DNA of 64,000 bases from Halorubrum ruber (GTDB taxonomy: Archaea > Halobacteriota > Halobacteria > Halobacteriales > Haloferacaceae), in the NCBI RefSeq assembly GCF_018228765.1, contig NZ_CP073695.1:372001-436000 (forward strand), given 5' to 3'. Positions 47,104-57,601 of the stretch are shown here, piece by piece. The notes beneath the pieces were generated by a model. That model ran no database searches. It saw only the letters and a program-made list of their open reading frames with translations, and had not been told where the DNA came from. The position numbers and the translations under genes are program-made. Position 1 is the stretch's first letter; every line of letters begins with the position of its first letter.

Positions 47104-47791
47104 GTGTTCAGATAAGCTGGTTCCATGCGAAAGCGAACGATCTGAGCCACTCATCAGCAGTTTCTGCTTTGGCGTTTCTAAAACAGTTTGAGAAACTGAT
47201 AGTTCTGCGTTTTATATTACGAAAGACATGTTTGACGCTGTTCCGATTTCCATGTCGTTCATATTTGAAATCGAGGTCGTGTTTGCGACAGGCTCGCTGA
47301 AGTGAAGCTGATCCATCGACGAGAACGGTTGCGTCATCCACGTCGTGTTTGTCACGGAGATCAGCGAAAAATCGATCTGCGAGAGCGTTATTTGTCGTCG
47401 GCTCAAGCTGTGTGTGAAGCAGATCATTCGTTTCGGATCAACAGCAGCGTACAGCCAATATTGTTCATCGTCAAGCCGAATCACCGTCTCATCAACCGCA
47501 ACGTGATTCGGGCTCCGGCCAGACTCCGGCTGTAGATCGGCTTTGTGAACCCAGTTATGAACGGTGGAGCGCACTCGTTCAACACCGAATACCTCAAGAA
47601 ACAAGATAGTATTCGAAAGCGATAATCCTGCTAAATGAAGCTGAATACTGAGCTTCATCAACAGCCGCGGTGTTGCCTCTCGCTCCACAAAGTCTAAGTT
47701 GATCTCGTCTAAACAGCCGCCGAGGCGGTTGTTTTCGGGCATAGATACTTTGAAAACGTACCGCCTCACATTTCAATTCTTATCTGAACAC
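47104..47791 (-). mobile_element. IS6-family-like insertion sequence, copy 1 (decayed)
   Basis: Inverted ends gtgttcagataag (47104-47116) and its complement (47779-47791) bound 688 bp, close to the size of short haloarchaeal IS6-type elements. The single transposase gene is frameshifted. No target duplication is seen (gcgccgta on the left, cgccctat on the right), so the junctions arose by recombination or deletion. The right junction cuts into a surface-protein gene. Confidence 0.85.
47108..47742 (-). pseudogene. IS6-type transposase, broken by a one-base deletion
   Basis: MPENNRLGGCLDEINLDFVE begins the protein; NWVHKADLQPESGRSPNHVA and VDETVIRLDDEQYWLYAAVD hold the first catalytic Asp. Near base 47434 the codons for DPETNDLL have lost one base. 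The frame shifts there; the rest (DDATVLVDGSASLQRACRKH ... ADEWLRSFAFAWNQLI) is in the next frame. Not active by itself. Confidence 0.85.
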
Positions 47792-48417
47792 CGCCCTATT
47801 TTTGGCGAGTAGGACCAAATACGCGGGCCTCAGTACCGGAGGGGTCAGAGTATATCTCAGAAGGTCCCCAATTTACGCACCGGTTTAAGCAAGCTGGTCG
47901 ACACACGGTTGAGGTTCTAATTACTTATGGAAATAATATTGTCTATAGTGGTGAAGCATTTCCAAATACTAGAGTCGGCTATCAGCACGAATCTGACGTA
48001 GCCCGTGCCAGTGAAATTGTTAATGTTCAGCCACTACCGGAAGATCCGATTAACTTAGATAATACGGATGTAACTATTTCGTTAAAGCCAGAGCAACAGG
48101 CTGTCTCTGTTGGAAATCCTGTATATCTAACACTTAGTATCACGAACACAATTGGGGATGGTCCAGTTTCAGCGCAACTCATTCTCGAAGTTCCAACTGG
48201 ACTAACTGTATCCGAGACATCATTTAATCAAGGTGGAGGTCAATACACATCAACCTTTGAAATCGATCCCGGTGACACAGCCAATGAGCAGATCGCTGTC
48301 CGTGCTACCGAGTCAGGCCCATACCAACTAACAGGGTACGTCGTTTACGAATTTGATGAGAGTGACACTACCGAACAAACACAGACTAGTGAAATTCAAC
48401 TTCGATTCTATGAGTAA
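47788..48417 (+). pseudogene. C-terminal part of a secreted surface protein, cut off by the IS6 element
   Basis: An open frame of about 209 codons runs from the IS6 end to TAA 48415-48417 without a start codon. It begins with a PKD-like end (YFWRVGPNTRASVPEGSEYI, FTHRFKQAGRHTVEVLITYG). Then comes a second beta domain: VTISLKPEQQAVSVGNPVYL, LILEVPTGLTVSETSFNQGG, QYTSTFEIDPGDTANEQIAV. The last domain resembles those of the next secreted proteins (48559, 54179, end of 51278). The N-terminal part is lost at base 47791. Confidence 0.75.
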
Positions 48418-48558
48418 ACGAGCGGATCATGCCTCTTAGGACACTTGGACTGGCGTTGAATAGATTATAGAGGCTCTGGAAGATAGTACGAATAACCAGT
48501 ACGAGTAACACTTACGAGTAAAGCTTAAGTTGGTGGGGTGTCATGTCCTAGTTGCGTC

Positions 48559-49230
48559 ATGGCATCTCACAAATCGCAGACGGCGATCGTGCTCGTGGCC
48601 GCGATCGTTCTGGGCAGCGTCATGCTCCCCCTCGCGGCCGGGCCCGCAGTTGCGCAGGAGAACAACTCGACCGCAGACAACACGACGACGACGCAGGTTG
48701 AAGAGTGCGAAAACCCGCGGACTCCCGAGATGGATCAGGCACGGCTTTACGCGCCTGAAACGGTGATCACCTCTGGGGATGCGGGGCGCATCGACGGGGG
48801 CTTCCAGCTCGACAATACTGTCGAGTGCCCAGTGAAGGTCGCCGTTACGCTCCGGGTTCCCTCGGGAATGTCGATCTCCGGCGGCAGTGACTGGGGGAGC
48901 GCCGGTGCTGGGATGGTGACCTCCACGTTCACGATGCAGCCGGGATCCGGCATCATGGACCTCTCGGGGAATGTCTACAGCGAGCGTACCGGTGAGCTCC
49001 GGGTTACCGGAGACATCGAGTACTGGCCCGCTGGCCATCCGGAGATGTCTCAGGAGATCGATGGGCTCACGTTTAACTTCGACGTCCAGGAGCCCAACAC
49101 CGGTGACGATGAGCCCGGGATCGGCATCCCCGATGTGAGCAATAGCACCCTGCTCATCTTACTCGTGGCGTTGGGGATGATTGGGATGATGTACGTCGCG
49201 CCGAAAGTGGGGGTTAATTTCCGCCAATAA
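48559..49230 (+). CDS. Secreted, membrane-anchored surface protein, novel family
   Basis: 223 residues. Signal peptide MASHKSQTAIVLVAAIVLGS to about residue 33 (AVA cleavage), a Thr/Asn-rich spacer, one beta-rich domain (about 60-190) and a C-terminal membrane anchor (NSTLLILLVALGMIGMMYVA, 197-216). Two cysteines (VEECENP, NTVECPV) may bond. The domain carries VPSGMSISGG and EYWPAGHPE (Y155-E162), shared with the 54179 protein. A gcttaagtt box lies about 27 bases upstream of ATG 48559, so the earlier GTG is not used. Confidence 0.75.
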   Translation: MASHKSQTAIVLVAAIVLGSVMLPLAAGPAVAQENNSTADNTTTTQVEECENPRTPEMDQARLYAPETVITSGDAGRIDGGFQLDNTVECPVKVAVTLRVPSGMSISGGSDWGSAGAGMVTSTFTMQPGSGIMDLSGNVYSERTGELRVTGDIEYWPAGHPEMSQEIDGLTFNFDVQEPNTGDDEPGIGIPDVSNSTLLILLVALGMIGMMYVAPKVGVNFRQ

Positions 49231-49310: not shown

Positions 49311-50132
49311 ATGTTTGGAAACCTATTCGGAGGTGATGACGACGACGATCAGGGCGGTGACAACGATGACTGGGAGGTTGATGTATCGATCAACACCGGG
49401 TTTACGAAATCCAATACGAGCGAGAACAGTGGCTCCGCAAGCGGATGGTTCCGGACGCATACGATCGATCTGAGCTCTGACGTGGACCAGCCGTCTGGAA
49501 GTGGCTCAGATGCCCCGTCAGGCCCCACGAGTCCCCCAACCCCTGATGTCGATCCGGGAGACTCATCGACGGCCCACGATCGTGGTACATTCGTCTTCCC
49601 GACGGGTCGGGACTTCCTTCAAAAGCTGGAAGCCCGCGGTCTCAACGGAGCTCACCAGCGTGTTGAGACTGTGTACATCCTGGCTGGACCAACGTACACT
49701 ACTCCCACCGACCTCTTCCGCGTCGACAATCCGGAATACTACGCGTCAGCGACTCGTCGGAGTGTCACGTCATACGGGCGAAAGATGGCGCGTAAGGTCG
49801 CAGCGCTGTATCCAGACGGCGAAGCACCCAAGCTACTGGCACGCTTCCACACACATCCAGGTGGGTCGACGCGCCCGAGTGATACTGACCGCGACAGTGC
49901 TGAGCAGATCGCTTCACAGTTCTCGGATGCGCTGGGTACCTCGGACTTTGAGTTCTTCCAAGGAATCCATGCGTACAAAGACCACAATGGGAATCCGGGC
50001 CCGTCGGAGCGCCATGACCCGGTTGTCCGAAGCAACAGCGTCTCGTGGCGCGGTGAACAGTATCGGCATGAGCTAGCGCTGTACGGACCAGCATTCCGTA
50101 ACCCACGACGGGTGGTGACTGGCGATGACTGA
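49311..50132 (+). CDS. JAMM/MPN-domain metalloprotease (JAB family), probable isopeptidase
   Basis: 273 residues. The first 90 are low complexity and acidic (MFGNLFGGDDDDDQGG, many Ser/Pro/Asp). The JAMM domain spans about 95-270: the catalytic Glu is likely E119 in VETVYILAG, and the zinc signature H180-T-H182-x7-S190-x2-D193 is exact (FHTHPGGSTRPSDTD). JAMM enzymes remove ubiquitin-like tags; haloarchaea have SAMP modifiers. The gene overlaps the next by 8 bases. No E1, E2 or modifier is next to it, so the substrate is open. Confidence 0.85.
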   Translation: MFGNLFGGDDDDDQGGDNDDWEVDVSINTGFTKSNTSENSGSASGWFRTHTIDLSSDVDQPSGSGSDAPSGPTSPPTPDVDPGDSSTAHDRGTFVFPTGRDFLQKLEARGLNGAHQRVETVYILAGPTYTTPTDLFRVDNPEYYASATRRSVTSYGRKMARKVAALYPDGEAPKLLARFHTHPGGSTRPSDTDRDSAEQIASQFSDALGTSDFEFFQGIHAYKDHNGNPGPSERHDPVVRSNSVSWRGEQYRHELALYGPAFRNPRRVVTGDD

Positions 50133-50691
50133 TGCTGATCTGGACCCGCGCCTGGCTGAGGCGCTTGCGCAACTCGATGAGAGCACAGTCGAGGGGATCT
50201 CTGATCTCGCCGCGAATGATCCCGAACTGCTCGAAGAGTTACTCGCTGACGTCGGGTACCTGCCGACGAGTAATGCTGAGTCCGACTCTGAGGAGATAGC
50301 TGAAAACTTGTCTCCCCCGCAGCGCCGACTGTCGGAGGCACTCACTGATATGGGGTCTCCCCGGACTACCGATGAGATCATTGAACTCCTACAGAACGAC
50401 CACCCCGATGTCATCGAAGAATACCAGTCGGCAAAACATCGGCCGTGGCTCTCAACGAAATTAAACGAACTCGTTGATAAAGGTGCCTTCGGACGATTTC
50501 GGGATGGGCGGACTGTTCGCTACGTCCCGTCCATTAGCGAGGCTGTTCGTCATTGGGCGCTTCATAATAACAGGTTCGTTGAGGACCTTGAGCGGAGCGA
50601 CGCACGCACCATCGCTGATGATACGGGGATGCCGACCTCTGCGATTCGCAACGCCATCGAGGAGATGACCAACGGAGATGAGCAATTATGA
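50125..50691 (+). CDS. Winged-helix protein of the JAMM operon
   Basis: 188 residues. The N-terminal 60 are acidic and helical (LAEALAQLDESTVEGISDLA). Residues 66-135 form a winged helix: RRLSEALTDMGSPRTTDEII, KHRPWLSTKLNELVDKGAFG, RFRDGRTVRYVPSI. The last 40 are helical (AVRHWALHNNRFVEDLE, then a possible second HTH DDTGMPTSAIRNAIEEM). Its start lies in the end of the JAMM gene and its stop overlaps the next start (ATGA). It could regulate the island or act as a JAMM partner. Confidence 0.7.
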   Translation: MTDADLDPRLAEALAQLDESTVEGISDLAANDPELLEELLADVGYLPTSNAESDSEEIAENLSPPQRRLSEALTDMGSPRTTDEIIELLQNDHPDVIEEYQSAKHRPWLSTKLNELVDKGAFGRFRDGRTVRYVPSISEAVRHWALHNNRFVEDLERSDARTIADDTGMPTSAIRNAIEEMTNGDEQL

Positions 50692-51194
50692 GTGACAATA
50701 CGACAGAACCAGACAATCAGAAGTCCGCCGAAGAGCGCGCTAACTGTGAGGGTGACTCGCCTCTCACCCCTGAAACTGAGCGTAACGCGACGACGGACGA
50801 GCATACCCCGTCGTCCCCTGATGTCGAGGTGACGGCCGCGACCGTTGCAGAACTACACCGGCGATTGCTCGACGCCGATAACACGGTGAATGATGCGGAG
50901 ACCCACATTACTACGCTTTCGGAGTTAGTTGGGACAGAACCGACGGATTCGAGATCCAGGTCAGCCAGTGTTTCCGCCGAACTCGATGCGGCAATTGCGA
51001 AGCTGGAAGAGACTGCGGACCATATTGATGCGGCCATCAATGGGGCACGAGAGCTTCAAGAATCAGCTAAAGCCACATCTGGTCCAACTGGTGATGAAGG
51101 CGAAAAAGAATCAGAGGGTCAGCCATCGATGTTTGATAAAGACGAGTACGTTCGGAACACTTCTGACGAGTGTTCAGATCAAGACCACGTTTGA
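50688..51194 (+). CDS. Acidic coiled-coil protein of the JAMM operon, function unknown
   Basis: 168 residues. The first 50 are disordered (Thr, Glu, Asp-rich); residues about 50-125 form a helical coiled coil (VTAATVAELHRRLLDADNTV, SAELDAAIAKLEETADHIDA). The tail is polar and ends DECSDQDHV. ATGA overlap with the previous gene makes it the third member of a coupled operon. No family recognised. Confidence 0.65.
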   Translation: MSDNTTEPDNQKSAEERANCEGDSPLTPETERNATTDEHTPSSPDVEVTAATVAELHRRLLDADNTVNDAETHITTLSELVGTEPTDSRSRSASVSAELDAAIAKLEETADHIDAAINGARELQESAKATSGPTGDEGEKESEGQPSMFDKDEYVRNTSDECSDQDHV

Positions 51195-51277: not shown

Positions 51278-54124
51278 ATGCTCAAGGGGGGTGGCCATAT
51301 CAAAACGGCACTCGTTGCTTCGATTGTTATTGTAGCTTGTTTTACGTTATTTCTCACAGGACCTGTATCTGCTACTGACAATTTAGACGAAACTAGAGAA
51401 ATCGGTGGACATGGCGAGGCTGTCCACCAATCAGATTCCACAGAATTCATTGTCAAAACCATTGCCGACTCCAGCGTTGTACAAGGAGACACATTTGAAT
51501 TAGAAATTGAGGTAACTAATGAGGGGGACGCAGCTGGCACCCAGACTATTACTTATGAAGTAGGTTCTATATATCGGGAGAATGAAATGTACTTGGAGCC
51601 TGGAGAAACAGATACGTGGTTCCTTACTGTCGACAGCGATCCGCTGTCGCCCGGCGAATACACGCATTATATCGAGAGTCCTTCAAGCACTGATGACCTT
51701 CCGTTCCTTGTCAAAGCTGGTGAGCCGAACTTCATCGTAGGTAATCTCCGTATTGAGAAAGACGGAGAAGTAACTTCACGGATTGAAAAAGGCGAATCTG
51801 CGAAGATAATGTATGCTATCCTCAATGATGGAGAGGGGCTCGGAACTCAGTATGCGAACTGCTATCTTGCTAACGAAAATGTGGGCGGTGAGTTCCTTGA
51901 ACTAGAGGCCTCAGAGATCCGAGACGACATGTCCTGTACGATCGACACAGGCGACCTTTCACCTGGGACCTACGAGTTCGGCGTTGAGACTGACGATGAT
52001 TCATGGTACAAGGAGGTGGTCATCGAGAAGCCTCCGCAGCCGCCGACAATCGATTCGGCATTCCCATCTGGTAATGTGAGGCTCAATGTTGCGACAGACG
52101 ATTCCGAGGAATTCAGTGTCGACGCTTCTGACCCTGACTCTAGTCCTGGGGCCCTCTCGACGGAATGGCTCATTGACGGTGAGAGCTATGGTACCGCTGA
52201 CCGGTTTACTGTCTACGCTGATGATCTTTCTCCGGGGACTCATACACTGAAAGCCGTCGTTAACGATAATCAAGCCGAAACCGAGGCAGCAACTCGTGAG
52301 TGGACGATCGATGTTGTCACGCCGCCACGGATTGCTGAACAGACACCAGAAAGCGAGTCGGTTGATATCGAGCCAGATCAATCCACATCGTTCAGAGTAA
52401 CTGTTGAGGACGGCGATACACCGAATTCAGACCTCGATATCTCATGGCGAGTAGACGGAGATCAAGTCGGGACAGGCGCGTCGTTTGATCTTGACAGGAG
52501 TATCTTGACTCCTGGAACCCATACGTTGAGTGTCAGAGTTTCTGATGACAGCGACCTCACCGAAGATACCTTCGCTGAGTGGACAGTGAAAGCCCTCGCT
52601 CGCCCCTCTATCTCTGAAATAACACCAGACCGCTCTACCGTCACCCCGGGTGAGTCAGTTACATTCTCTGTCGACCCGACTGATCCAAACGGTAGGGGGA
52701 TCACTGACGTCCAGTGGCAAATAGCTGGTAATGAGTTTACTGGACGGTCTATCCAGCATACCTTCGCGCAGGTTGGAACAGTTGAAGCCGTTGTTGAGGT
52801 CACAAATGAAGCTGGTCTCGTGGCAACCGAATCAACTGAAATTACCGTCGAATCAACACCACCACGGCTCGAATCTGCTGGTCCAGAACAACCAGTAGTG
52901 GCGGTTGGTGAACCGGTTGAATTCGACGTAGAAGCTTCAGATCCCAAAGACCGGTCGCTGTCTTTCGATTACCAGTGGCGTTCCGACACGGGGGAAACCG
53001 ATGACCAACAGTCGACAACCATGCGCTTCGACGAAGTCGGCAAGCATGAGGTCACTCTCACGGTGACCAACAAGTACGGTGCTGAAACGACGCAGACCTA
53101 TACGGTTAGTGTCCAGAACGATGAGCCCTCGATAGTACGTCGGAATCCCTCTGAAGACTCTGAATCTATTCTTTCACAAAGGACCGCTCGCTTTGCTGCT
53201 GTTATTACCAACCGTGATTCGTCACCAGCAACGGTCCGGTTCCAGATAGATGGAGACACAGTTGAAACGCAACGAATGACGGGTGATGAAGAACTCGTCA
53301 GCTTCCAGCAGGCGTTCTCAACTCCGGGGGAAAGGACAGTTGAGATATCGGTCGTAGATAGTCATGGTGCCGAAAACCAAGTCACGTGGGACATGGAGGT
53401 CGAAAGTAGACCTCCCGAAATTCGTGATGTCTCACCAGGTGAGGATAGCCTTACCGTGATGTCTGGCGAAACTCGCTCATTTGATGTATCAGCTGTCGAT
53501 CCGGAAAAACAGGGTGTGGAGTACCAATGGTACCGAAACAGCAGCATAATCGGTGCTGGACCGTCAGTAACAGAGACTTTTGATGAGGGAGGTACATACG
53601 ATCTGACCGTAGAAGCGAGTGATCCACAGGGTAGTACCTCTACCCGGTCTTGGTCAGTTAATGTCCGTAGCTTCCGTGAACCGCCTACAGAGAGTACACA
53701 CCTATCCAACATCGAGATCGACCCGGAGAGTGAGCGGGTTACGAAAACGTTCTTGACTACCTCACTAGAGAACCCGTCGTCAAATGATCGAACTGTCGTC
53801 GTGGAATTCATCATTGATACGCCCGATGGCCTTGAGGTAGTTCGACAGCGAGGCGTGAGCGAAGCGAATAACGCTCAGATTACTGGGATCGGACGAATTG
53901 AACCCGGAGCTCAGCGATCAATGCGTGTTGGTCTACGAATTGCTGATGAATCTATCATCGGATCAGATGTTCCCATTGATGTAACAATTCGATATTATCC
54001 TGCCAGCCAACCAGAGGACATAAGTTATGTTCGTCAGTCAAACGAGGAGGTCACGATTCAACGACCAGGAATTATCCCGCAGGTTACGACTTGGATTGAC
54101 TCCCTAATTGATGATATTCTATAG
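51278..54124 (+). CDS. Large secreted multi-domain surface protein (CARDB and Ig/PKD-like repeats)
   Basis: 948 residues. Signal peptide 1-31 (ALVASIVIVACFTLFLTGPV), two CARDB-like domains (about 55-150 and 155-250; GDTFELEIEVTNEGDAAGTQ), then about six Ig/PKD-like repeats (255-820) each with DASDP-type and W[LRQ][IV][DA]G motifs. A C-terminal domain (830-925) has RYYPASQPED (Y906-E913), matching the small secreted proteins nearby. There is no clear membrane anchor; the end IIPQVTTWIDSLIDDIL is amphipathic. An attaataag box 27 bases upstream supports the start. Base use is markedly A+T-richer than the genome. Confidence 0.78.
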   Translation: MLKGGGHIKTALVASIVIVACFTLFLTGPVSATDNLDETREIGGHGEAVHQSDSTEFIVKTIADSSVVQGDTFELEIEVTNEGDAAGTQTITYEVGSIYRENEMYLEPGETDTWFLTVDSDPLSPGEYTHYIESPSSTDDLPFLVKAGEPNFIVGNLRIEKDGEVTSRIEKGESAKIMYAILNDGEGLGTQYANCYLANENVGGEFLELEASEIRDDMSCTIDTGDLSPGTYEFGVETDDDSWYKEVVIEKPPQPPTIDSAFPSGNVRLNVATDDSEEFSVDASDPDSSPGALSTEWLIDGESYGTADRFTVYADDLSPGTHTLKAVVNDNQAETEAATREWTIDVVTPPRIAEQTPESESVDIEPDQSTSFRVTVEDGDTPNSDLDISWRVDGDQVGTGASFDLDRSILTPGTHTLSVRVSDDSDLTEDTFAEWTVKALARPSISEITPDRSTVTPGESVTFSVDPTDPNGRGITDVQWQIAGNEFTGRSIQHTFAQVGTVEAVVEVTNEAGLVATESTEITVESTPPRLESAGPEQPVVAVGEPVEFDVEASDPKDRSLSFDYQWRSDTGETDDQQSTTMRFDEVGKHEVTLTVTNKYGAETTQTYTVSVQNDEPSIVRRNPSEDSESILSQRTARFAAVITNRDSSPATVRFQIDGDTVETQRMTGDEELVSFQQAFSTPGERTVEISVVDSHGAENQVTWDMEVESRPPEIRDVSPGEDSLTVMSGETRSFDVSAVDPEKQGVEYQWYRNSSIIGAGPSVTETFDEGGTYDLTVEASDPQGSTSTRSWSVNVRSFREPPTESTHLSNIEIDPESERVTKTFLTTSLENPSSNDRTVVVEFIIDTPDGLEVVRQRGVSEANNAQITGIGRIEPGAQRSMRVGLRIADESIIGSDVPIDVTIRYYPASQPEDISYVRQSNEEVTIQRPGIIPQVTTWIDSLIDDIL

Positions 54125-54178: not shown

Positions 54179-54832
54179 ATGATTAGTAGTGCCCGTACAC
54201 ACATTGCTTTTGTCTGTGTACTCGCAGTGCTGGTTGTCTGTACTGGCGTTGTGGCTGCAACTCCGCAGACGGCGATGTCGGGCGCAGATGTAACTCTCAC
54301 CAATGCGACGAATTCTGAGACGTGTTCGGGGAATGTCCAAGAGAAAGCGAGTATTAGCCAGACCTCAATCCAAGCAGTTGATGATCAAATCACTACAAAT
54401 CAGCCTGCTCTAGTTTCTGGACAAATCGTTACACCTCAATCGAATCAGTGTACTGTCGTGGTTCAGATCATTCTAACTATCCCGTCGGACATGTACGTCT
54501 CGGGTACCGATGGTGTGGGAAGCAGTGGTCAGGGCAAATTGAGTGCGACGTTCAGATTATCTCCGGGAGAGACCCAATCGATGTCAGCACAAGTGTATGC
54601 GAGCTCTACAGGGACACGCGTAATAATCGCGGACTTCCTCTATTACCCAGCTGGACACCCAGAAGATGAACGCCAGCTAACTGGCTTCTCGATGGAAATC
54701 GAGGCACTCGAATCGAATCTACCTGGAGAGAATGTTAACGGCTCAACAGCCTCCAGCCTCATAACTGAATTCATACTTGTTGGAATTTCCGGCTTGTTCC
54801 TTCTCGTCGTCGGGATCAGATTACTCCAGTAG
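54179..54832 (+). CDS. Secreted, membrane-anchored surface protein, paralogue of the 48559 protein
   Basis: 217 residues. Signal peptide (AFVCVLAVLVVCTGVVAATP), one beta domain with two cysteines (SETCSGN, SNQCTVV), and a C-terminal membrane segment (EFILVGISGLFLLVVGIRLL). YYPAGHPE falls at residues 155-162, exactly the position it has in the 48559 protein, and IPSDMYVSG matches VPSGMSISG. A gtttttaga box lies 27 bases before the ATG. It closes the surface cluster, 54 bases after the large protein. Confidence 0.75.
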   Translation: MISSARTHIAFVCVLAVLVVCTGVVAATPQTAMSGADVTLTNATNSETCSGNVQEKASISQTSIQAVDDQITTNQPALVSGQIVTPQSNQCTVVVQIILTIPSDMYVSGTDGVGSSGQGKLSATFRLSPGETQSMSAQVYASSTGTRVIIADFLYYPAGHPEDERQLTGFSMEIEALESNLPGENVNGSTASSLITEFILVGISGLFLLVVGIRLLQ

Positions 54833-55092
54833 TATCCATTAATAATCTCTATGGATGTCCATTTGGTCGTGTTAAGTTAGAGGATGAGGCGGACGAGTTC
54901 TGAGTGTCTATGGCAGAATTCGACCGCCTCAGCGAACGTATCGCGTGGATCGACTTGTCGTTTGTGGAGCGAGATCGAACTCCGCGCTGGGCGATTGAAA
55001 TAGGGATCCGCTGTCACTTGGCCGGTATGTCACTACGTGAGGTAAGTAAACATCTTGAACTATTTGGGATCAAGCGGGGTCATGTTGCGATC

Positions 55093-55554
55093 GGCTCTGT
55101 TGAAATCCTTAGGAAGTGACACATTCTGTCCCGGGTGTGGTCAATATAGTAGGTCTTTGTCGAAAAACAACGTACTGACACTCTTCAGTCAGTGCCAATT
55201 GAACCACAGTTTTCACATTTCCATCGTACTTTTCCGGCTATACTGTACAGACGGCTACTCTTAAGAACAAGAAGTTCATCGTGTTCATGCCCACACTCCC
55301 AACACGTGACATTGGAGACTTCTGACTCATACCAATCGCTCACCTCAAGATCTGTGTCACGCTCAATCTCGCTTCGTTTCATATCACATGTCATTATAGT
55401 AACTATAAAAAAGTTATTATAACATTATGTATATTCCACAGTAAGCAATTGATTCTTTTACAGGTTGATCCGCACCTTGCGCCACATTCGCAAGCGCATT
55501 CTATCGGCTGTTTCAGCCGATGATGTGTCCGAATAATAGGATTTCAACAGAGCC
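55093..55554. mobile_element. 462-bp mobile element with perfect 17-bp ends, carrying a small zinc-ribbon gene
   Basis: ggctctgttgaaatcct (55093-55109) and its exact complement (55538-55554) are the ends. The flanks ttgcgatc at 55085-55092 and 55555-55562 are an 8-bp target duplication. The ends match the element at 6063-6712. A subterminal hairpin tcggctg/cagccga lies at 55504-55520. The only gene is a zinc-ribbon protein on the minus strand; there is no transposase, so it must move with help from elsewhere. Confidence 0.9.
55185..55382 (-). CDS. Small zinc-ribbon protein carried by the 462-bp mobile element
   Basis: 65 residues: MKRSEIERDTDLEVSDWYES, EVSNVTCWECGHEHDELLVL, KSSRLYSIAGKVRWKCENCG, SIGTD. 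Two CxxC pairs (CWEC, CENC), 25 residues apart, form a zinc ribbon. ATG 55382 is chosen because a tttttatag box lies about 26 bases upstream; an ATG at 55394 would be only 14 from it. It may be a passenger gene or a leftover accessory protein. Function unknown. Confidence 0.65.
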   Translation of the reverse strand: MKRSEIERDTDLEVSDWYESEVSNVTCWECGHEHDELLVLKSSRLYSIAGKVRWKCENCGSIGTD

Positions 55555-55924
55555 TTGCGATCCATAATTGGGTTCACAAAGCCGATTTACAGCCGATCTC
55601 GACCGTCTCAGAGGATCAACTCGCGGTTGACGAAAAGATGCTCCGCCTCCACGGCCAGCAGTTCTGGCTGTACGGCGCGGTTGATCACAGACGAACGAGA
55701 TCCTCCATGTGAGCCTCTATCCAACCGCAAATAAACAGACGACGCGATGGTTTCTGACCGATCTACATCAGCGCTATCAGCTGAATAATATCGAATTTCT
55801 CGTCGATGACGCGGACTATCTCGGATCAGTACTCGCTGAAGACGGCTATCGATTTCAAGTCATTCGACATGGAAATCGGAACGCCATCGAACGTGTCCTT
55901 TGGGAGATAGAACAACAAACTTGA

Positions 55925-55995: not shown

Positions 55996-57255
55996 TCAAG
56001 ACGCATACGTTCCAAGCGTCGTCTGCTGGTTTTCAGCATCGGCTTGGCTGTCTTGTGGCCCGGTCAAAGAGGCCCCATCCGTAGCCGAGTCATCGTCACC
56101 AGCCTTCTGCCGGGAAGCCCAGTCGCTTTGGCGGTGACTCTCTCCACTACGGTAGCGGTCTGCAATGTTTATCGCCCCGTTCACGTCGGCTTGATACTCA
56201 CCGACCCAACAGCCGTCGTTCGAGCATCTAAACGTCGCCTGTCGTGGCCGGTAACCGTGTTCACCGCAGGCGTGACACGCCTTCGACGTGTTCCGGGGAT
56301 TCACCGTCTCGACGGGAATCCCCTTCTCGGTGGCTTTGTAGCGAATCTGTGCGTGGAGCTTGGCAAAGCCCCACCCGTGTAACCGCCGATTCATATACTC
56401 ACCGTAGTCCATGTTCTCGCGGATGTACCTCAGGTCTTCCAGCACCAACACTGGGTTGTCGACGGACTCGGCGTAGTCCACGACCTCGCTGGTCACACGG
56501 TGAAAAACGTCGTCAATCTGGTCCCACAGTGCGTCACCGTAGGACTCTGCGATTCGCTCACTACCACGCTTCTGAAGCCGTCTTGTGGCGGTGAAGTAGG
56601 TTTTTCGGAGCCGACGAACGGCTTTGCCGTCGTCGGCCCACAGGCGGGGGCGAACCGGAGAACCGGAGCCGTCGCGGTGACACACCGTGACGAGGCTCGC
56701 TTCTCCGATGTCCACACCAACCGGCGTCCGCTTATCGGCGGACGCCTCAGATTCGTCCTCCACGTCGCGGGTAGCGGTGATGTGGAGGTACCACGTTCCA
56801 TCCCGCTCGAACAGCCGACTTTCACCCATCTCGGCGTCGTCTGCGTTTAACGCTTCAAGCCAATCCCGCTGGTCGGGATTGGCGCGTGCCGGTATCCAGA
56901 GGTGGTAATCCTCGTGGTGCGGGACTTTGGCGTACCACTCGATAGCGTTCTGTGGCTGGTGGTCGAGTTGTAGGCCCTCGTTTGTGAACCGCACTGGGTG
57001 GTCGTCGTGGATCTCGTTGGCGTCGTAGCTGTTCCCACAGAGTTGTGGGACGTACTTCTTGAGAGCATTTTTCGCGTAGCCGCTCAGGTCGTACTCGACA
57101 ACCACATCGTTGGTTGCTGACTGCGTGTCACAACCAGTGTCAAAGGCGGCCTGAAGCGCCCGTTGATAGGCGTCGCGTGTCTCACGAAGTTTCTGTCGCT
57201 TATGGAGGTTCGGGTCCACAAGCTTCAGTTCGAGGGTTTTCGTGAGTTCGCCCAT
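55996..57255 (-). CDS. tnpB: TnpB RNA-guided nuclease (IS605 OrfB)
   Basis: 419 residues from ATG 57255. RuvC-like residues are all present: VGVDIGEAS (Asp), VLEDLRYI (Glu) and YQADVNGAINIA (Asp). The zinc finger between the last two reads CHACGEHGYRPRQATFRC with NDGC. The N-terminal helical domain begins MGELTKTLELKLVDPNLHKR. No frameshift or missing catalytic residue, so it looks active. Two in-frame ATGs (57255, 57276) arise from a 21-bp duplication; the true start is unsure by seven residues. Confidence 0.92.
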   Translation of the reverse strand: MGELTKTLELKLVDPNLHKRQKLRETRDAYQRALQAAFDTGCDTQSATNDVVVEYDLSGYAKNALKKYVPQLCGNSYDANEIHDDHPVRFTNEGLQLDHQPQNAIEWYAKVPHHEDYHLWIPARANPDQRDWLEALNADDAEMGESRLFERDGTWYLHITATRDVEDESEASADKRTPVGVDIGEASLVTVCHRDGSGSPVRPRLWADDGKAVRRLRKTYFTATRRLQKRGSERIAESYGDALWDQIDDVFHRVTSEVVDYAESVDNPVLVLEDLRYIRENMDYGEYMNRRLHGWGFAKLHAQIRYKATEKGIPVETVNPRNTSKACHACGEHGYRPRQATFRCSNDGCWVGEYQADVNGAINIADRYRSGESHRQSDWASRQKAGDDDSATDGASLTGPQDSQADAENQQTTLGTYAS

Positions 57256-57293
57256 CGTCACCGTACGAAGATCCATCGTCACCGTACGAAGAT
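57252..57293 (-). repeat. 21-bp tandem duplication at the tnpB start
   Basis: Bases 57252-57272 and 57273-57293 are identical (ccatcgtcaccgtacgaaga plus t). The unit contains an ATG on the minus strand, so the gene has two equally spaced starts. Probably a recent slippage event. Confidence 0.85.
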
Positions 57294-57601
57294 TTTGGTT
57301 GTGGCAGATATATATCCCAGCCATCCGGAGTGGAAGTGAACCCGTGGGAAATCCGGCACTACAATAGAACGGTGGGTTGTCACACTATGATGTCCGCTCG
57401 ACCCCCGCCTGTTCGTTCCTCGGTTCCGACACTCTGTCGGAACACTCGTCACTCACGGCAAGGCGGGGGTATGCGCTCGTATCTCTATCATCGTTTGCGA
57501 ATAATTTTAGCAATGTCGCGTTAGAGACAGCTCAAAACTGGCTCGAAGCCTTCGCCGTCTACCACAATTCACGTCAAACTTAACGCGAGGATACTCCGCC
57601 G

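Follow-up and report, generated by a model that had tools for sequence, protein, structure and literature searches.

The island and its genes

The window, meaning the whole 64,000-nucleotide stretch that was analysed, corresponds to positions 372001–436000 of a single-contig, 3.02-Mb haloarchaeal genome. It includes an island in which G+C content falls to 0.46–0.57, against approximately 0.69 in the surrounding chromosome. The following features were delimited:

47108–47769, minus strand: transposase remnant at the left border, with an inverted-repeat match to 55563–55913
47797–48414, plus strand: truncated PKD/CARDB surface-lipoprotein gene, its 5' end missing at the transposase-remnant border
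48487–48521, plus strand: putative operator, with sites TACGAATAA, TACGAGTAA and TTACGAGTAA at a 13-bp period, directly upstream of a TATA-like CTTAAG
48559–49230, plus strand: SP, a secreted beta-sandwich-type protein (core gene), with an N-terminal signal segment, a C-terminal membrane helix and a short tail by hydropathy
49311–50132, plus strand: JAMM, a JAMM/MPN+ metalloprotease of 273 aa (core gene), with no membrane segment
50125–50691, plus strand: wHTH (core gene), with a helical N-terminal domain, a winged helix and a second small HTH (model pLDDT 83)
50688–51194, plus strand: CC, an acidic coiled-coil protein (accessory gene), with a conserved C-terminal D-x-YVRNTS motif
51278–54124, plus strand: large secreted PKD/Ig/CARDB surface protein, by Pfam
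54179–54832, plus strand: SP paralogue, 25% identical to SP and sharing its Y-x-P-x-G motif
54904–55924 (54904–55119 and 55709–55924), plus strand: transposase remnants at the right border
55996–57324, minus strand: TnpB-like protein of IS200/IS605 type (PF07282, E 3e-17)

The original prediction concerned a three-gene operon of JAMM, wHTH and CC, situated in a low-G+C island between two insertion sequences. The three reading frames lay where it had put them, and their overlaps were real, being 8 nt between JAMM and wHTH (50125–50132) and 4 nt between wHTH and CC (50688–50691). Low G+C was likewise borne out; the flanks, however, proved to consist of inversely oriented remnants of a single transposase type (47.1–47.8 and 54.9–55.9 kb), plus the TnpB-like gene, which lies on the island's right-hand edge and carries a Cas12f-like TNB domain. 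The truncated gene 47797–48414, which had been overlooked, as had the membership of SP in the unit and the operator array, lost the 5' part at the point marked by the left remnant. Its product was 93.7% identical over 206 aa to an intact homologue, L010:3206–4093 (tblastn). At the other end of the island, the large surface-protein gene 51278–54124, which is probably cargo of the cassette, had a homologue in L016 (65% nucleotide identity), where a homologue of the SP paralogue was also found near a large PKD gene.

Comparison of the window with L010 showed purifying selection on JAMM (omega 0.06), wHTH (0.05) and CC (0.13), which argues that all three are real genes. None of the three had a membrane segment by hydropathy. 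In SP, the extracellular domain contained an invariant Y-x-P-x-G motif that was also present at the ends of several large PKD/PQQ cassette proteins. The tail after its membrane helix was short in all SPs (about 2–11 residues) and differed in sequence between lineages, with basic last residues, usually Lys, in most loci. Many cassette surface proteins with PKD, PQQ propeller or TSP3 N-terminal modules ended in an SP-related beta-sandwich segment (for example, window 51278–54124, L017:6714–8657 and L021:6666–8309), suggesting that SP-type domains may serve as a shared means of attachment.

The active site of JAMM, which the original prediction had read as a perfect H-x-H-x7-S-x2-D motif with Glu119, was complete: H180-T-H182-PGGSTRP-S190-DT-D193, with Glu119 lying within VETVY. 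These five residues (E119, H180, H182, S190 and D193) were invariant in 13 aligned homologues, non-haloarchaeal ones at 24–25% identity included, as well as in a narrower alignment of 11. The Prok-JAB model (PF14464) matched at 28.1 bits (cut-off 25), and the AlphaFold model, although of moderate confidence (pLDDT 67) and disordered at the N terminus, matched the MPN domains of Rpn11, CSN5 and BRCC36 in Foldseek with a probability of 1.00. Profile matches to MPN proteins in the PDB were marginal, JAMM being remote in sequence from every solved member. By motif and predicted fold the product is a JAMM/MPN+ protein, and zinc-dependent isopeptidase or peptidase activity is predicted. A housekeeping desampylase, the known stand-alone type that would have refuted the original prediction, was rejected: JAMM scored 17.7 bits on the NF041370 model, where the cut-off is 130, and the genome's own separate desampylase is encoded at G000:C1:828393–828797 (160 bits).

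Distribution and inheritance of the unit

The conserved unit is SP-JAMM-wHTH, which begins one gene before the JAMM-wHTH-CC trio and in which CC is optional. SP stood directly before JAMM, and wHTH directly after it, in 13 of 13 haloarchaeal loci. Of the three genes that had been expected to occur together, therefore, the JAMM-wHTH pair held in every locus while CC was present in only 6 of 13, so that CC was rejected as a core gene and the operon as first drawn lacked SP. The unit is patchily distributed, occurring in about 2% of sampled genomes, with homologues in 8 of 391 genomes sampled from the class and in 6 of 170 from the family. Among named genomes, homologues turned up in Halorussus, Halobellus and Halorubrum, as well as in one MAG carrying the label Haloquadratum; the unit in the Halorubrum californiense genome was interrupted by contig ends. 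Degenerate or partial copies were also present in related genomes. Partial relatives of wHTH occurred without JAMM in some genomes (G002 and G048), and one locus, L066, had JAMM with no other unit gene nearby. At L066:8095–8502 there was, in addition, a diverged JAMM-like ORF that had apparently lost its HxH motif, approximately 2.5 kb from a JAMM ORF with an intact motif (L066:5075–5605).

Among non-haloarchaeal genomes of the phylum, profiles recovered a diverged unit in three (L044, L046 and L048), with all catalytic residues retained and a JAMM identity of approximately 24%. Here wHTH was not adjacent to JAMM but lay one to three genes beyond it: a second secreted protein intervened in L044 and L046, and three small genes in L048. 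SP-JAMM was the tightest neighbour pair over all lineages. A search of the outgroup genomes for methyl-coenzyme M reductase was positive for 3 of 4 genomes of family f16 and negative for 3 of 3 of family f15. Comparison of distance matrices gave correlations of 0.97 for JAMM and wHTH and 0.80 for SP and JAMM (reached in 0–1 of 5000 permutations), from which it follows that the unit genes have mostly moved together.

The MAG G411 contained the whole unit twice, in diverged form (L053 and L054), and a further copy was located on a plasmid of Halobellus ramosii. Together with the inverted transposase remnants at the borders of the island, these copies point to horizontal spread of the cassette. 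A viral origin was rejected, there being no relative of the unit among viral contigs or phages. On the Halobellus plasmid (L015:4641–17835) the unit was preceded by a long divergent operon encoding a primase, a primase-associated protein, a large ATP-binding protein and several hypothetical proteins.

In related loci the unit was surrounded by adhesin-like PKD/CARDB/PQQ surface proteins. In Halorussus-type loci (L012:2217–6994; also L011, L017 and L018) it adjoined a T2SSF (TadC-like) gene and pilin-like DUF7261/7262/7263/7266 genes. This TadC/DUF7261–7266 cluster was rejected as part of the unit, given that it adjoins the module in Halorussus-type loci only, and was taken to mark a shared insertion place.

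The promoter array and the winged-helix protein

Alignments of two independent groups of loci revealed a 10-bp palindrome, TTACNNGTAA, repeated in two to three copies upstream of SP with a period of approximately 13 bp; the last copy lay approximately 47 bp before the SP start codon and directly before a TATA-like element. In pattern searches allowing up to three mismatches, the tandem array at the SP promoter had no counterpart elsewhere in the 3.02-Mb genome, and the control returned 0. The alternative spacing seen in Halorussus-type loci occurred in G171 at the module promoter only. Within the DNA retrieved for each of nine loci, sites of this type clustered only at the SP promoter, and in the window neither the PKD gene nor the SP paralogue had such an operator upstream. 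Across the 200 bp preceding SP in 13 loci there were 13 exact sites (0.09 expected) and 25 sites with at most one mismatch (0.86 expected), in counts that include the eight loci where the motif was spotted by eye; the independent count is that of the five loci outside its derivation, which gave 6 sites where approximately 0.3 were expected. Of the 13 loci, 12 had such sites ahead of SP, and the exception, with no clear site, was L020. The three-site array at the SP promoter is a new observation.

The array was assigned to wHTH because this is the sole DNA-binding protein common to all cassettes, and wHTH is accordingly the likely binding factor. The position of the array beside the promoter is compatible with either a repressor or an activator. 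In structural comparison by Foldseek, the wHTH model resembled ArsR, Fur and BlaI-type repressors, with weak E-values, and the top 50 matches were mostly DNA-binding repressors. By profile, the best natural PDB chain was BlaI (1p6r, E 0.034). Penicillinase_R (PF03965, BlaI/MecI) scored 20.9 bits, below the cut-off of 22.6; it was the commonest Pfam match in the wHTH family (8 of 16 members), with scores below the cut-off in the members for which they were listed. As regards membership of the BlaI/MecI family, a winged-helix fold was predicted and a putative palindromic operator array was present at the protein's own operon. Judged from profiles and the model, wHTH resembles BlaI, the formal Penicillinase_R cut-off being missed, and it is probably the transcription regulator of the operon. 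The model also placed a poorly ordered linker between the helical N-terminal part and the winged helix. The notion of a PCI-type partner for JAMM was unsupported, as no PCI match was obtained by Pfam or within the top 50 Foldseek matches of wHTH.

Possible functions and relation to known systems

The original suggestion of a protease-regulator module associated with a surface structure is well supported by the co-occurrence of SP, JAMM and wHTH in 13 haloarchaeal loci and, diverged, in other genomes of the phylum, by their PKD/CARDB/PQQ neighbours and by the dedicated operator array. Roles for the three proteins were proposed because the layout resembles two systems in which a metalloprotease controls a repressor: the membrane receptor BlaR1, which has a zinc protease and cleaves the winged-helix repressor BlaI (PMC9834060), and the zinc protease IrrE, which cleaves DdrO (PMC7907104). 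The unit is best, if tentatively, read as a mobile, autoregulated sensor-protease-regulator switch for a surface-protein cassette, an analogue of BlaR1/BlaI built around a JAMM enzyme. SP would be membrane-anchored, its folded domain facing outwards and its short tail inwards, while JAMM would be cytoplasmic and would probably work with SP, given that the SP gene directly precedes JAMM in all lineages. wHTH would bind the TTACNNGTAA sites of the operon promoter, beside the TATA/BRE, and would set the expression of SP, JAMM and itself, and probably of the downstream PKD/CARDB proteins. A ligand, crowding or damage at the surface might trigger a signal from SP, whereupon JAMM would cleave or otherwise inactivate wHTH and expression would change; a cut would probably fall in or near the flexible linker (residues 47–61) between the helical N-terminal domain and the winged helix. 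The surface proteins would then be the output, with SP as sensor or anchor.

The mechanism is plausible, and its computational support consists of the conserved unit, the intact active site, selection, co-inheritance, the predicted wHTH fold, and the operator array with its uniqueness. Its component steps differ in likelihood. Control of JAMM by SP is quite possible, if short of probable, while action of JAMM on wHTH is rather doubtful. Characterised JAMM enzymes cut after ubiquitin-like C termini, which speaks against the switch, as do the Penicillinase_R score below its cut-off, the separation of wHTH from JAMM in the outgroups, the genomes with partial wHTH relatives or JAMM alone, and L020 with its lack of a clear operator site. 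The open-access papers searched yielded no case in which a JAMM enzyme cleaves a transcription factor, no relevant paper combining JAMM and BlaI, and no description of the SP-JAMM-wHTH unit. The strictest form, that JAMM, switched on by a surface-anchored sensor, cuts a BlaI-like regulator directly and without any ubiquitin-like modifier, would constitute an undescribed class of archaeal transmembrane signalling, and is more doubtful again.

The strongest alternative retains the known chemistry of these enzymes, in keeping with the complete MPN+ active site. JAMM would be a specialised desampylase, stripping from the SP tail or from wHTH a SAMP-type modifier that the general SAMP/UbaA machinery of the cell supplies, and so tuning the surface cassette, with wHTH a plain autoregulator. 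The precedent is HvJAMM1, which releases SAMP1 from MoaE (PMC4443979). The basic, usually Lys-terminated SP tails in most loci favour such a role; against it stand the score far below the desampylase cut-off, the presence of a separate desampylase in the genome and the marginal PDB profile matches to MPN proteins. Furthermore, no E1, E2 or modifier (of CBASS Cap2/Cap3, Bil or archaeal ubiquitin type) was recognised in the window or in scanned neighbours of related loci. Their absence, as originally described, was thus upheld for the island; a ubiquitin-like substrate may nevertheless be involved, haloarchaeal SAMP conjugation being encoded elsewhere in the genome (PMC4443979). On balance this alternative is unlikely.

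Somewhat less likely again is a processing peptidase for the cassette surface proteins, which would trim the cytoplasmic tail of SP or clear unexported precursors while wHTH autoregulates independently. The tight SP-JAMM pairing in every lineage, L044, L046 and L048 included, and the tail on all SPs would suit this role, but those tails are short and variable between lineages, and we know of no JAMM that processes surface proteins in this way. An anti-virus defence module, in which SP and the surface proteins would sense incoming viruses or keep them out, with JAMM as effector or regulator, is very improbable: patchy distribution on an island and a plasmid, and the JAB domains of CBASS and Bil systems, would agree with it, yet PADLOC gave marginal JAB matches only, no conserved cyclase, E1/E2 or nuclease partner or other known system component was adjacent, and the conserved neighbours were adhesin-like PKD/PQQ proteins. 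The defence role offered in the original prediction is unsupported. Least probable is a stable wHTH-JAMM structural complex resembling the MPN-PCI pairs in the proteasome lid and COP9, with wHTH no DNA-binding substrate, which the order of helices then winged helix beside an MPN protein gene might suggest, but which is opposed by the repressor-dominated, PCI-free Foldseek matches and by a dedicated operator array that implies a DNA-binding partner.

To our knowledge, few routes for a signal from the archaeal cell surface to a promoter are known, and the conserved unit with its own operator array offers a small candidate system that lends itself to testing. Should JAMM act on the regulator, an MPN+ fold familiar from deubiquitination would take on a second role as a gene-switch protease, and direct cleavage would make an MPN+ enzyme a regulated, sequence-specific protease in such a switch. 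If it acts via SAMP modifiers instead, archaea would possess a dedicated ubiquitin-like regulatory circuit. In both cases the result has implications for how JAMM enzymes evolved early on.

Among described systems, the unit is not a ubiquitin-type conjugation operon, nor is it BlaR1, ImmA or IrrE, nor a desampylase by the curated model. CBASS Cap3 and the Bil-system JAB peptidases also place a JAB domain in a mobile operon, but the unit lacks a recognised E1/E2, modifier or cyclase and gave marginal PADLOC and NCBIfam matches only. Caldiarchaeum CsRpn11 (6fjv) and eukaryotic Rpn11, CSN5 and BRCC36 share the MPN+ fold and zinc site (Foldseek probability 1.00); their sequence match, however, is marginal (E 0.05–0.17), and there is no ubiquitin operon near the unit. 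HvJAMM1 (NF041370) has the same catalytic motif and is likewise haloarchaeal, whereas JAMM here has an N-terminal extension and operon partners and reaches 17.7 bits against the cut-off of 130. In ImmA/ImmR and IrrE/DdrO a metalloprotease gene is similarly linked to a regulator gene whose product binds DNA, and mobile DNA often carries the pair, but those proteases are not JAMM enzymes, their repressors are of XRE-type HTH rather than winged-helix form, and there is no membrane partner. No M56 or ImmA-type Pfam match was obtained among the cassette proteins. With respect to BlaR1/BlaI and MecR1/MecI, sensor and protease are separate proteins here, JAMM/MPN+ takes the place of the HEXXH peptidase, there is no beta-lactam-binding domain, and wHTH scores below the Penicillinase_R cut-off; in common with them, the unit would combine a membrane sensor with an outside domain, a cytoplasmic zinc protease, a BlaI-like winged helix and an operator at its own operon.
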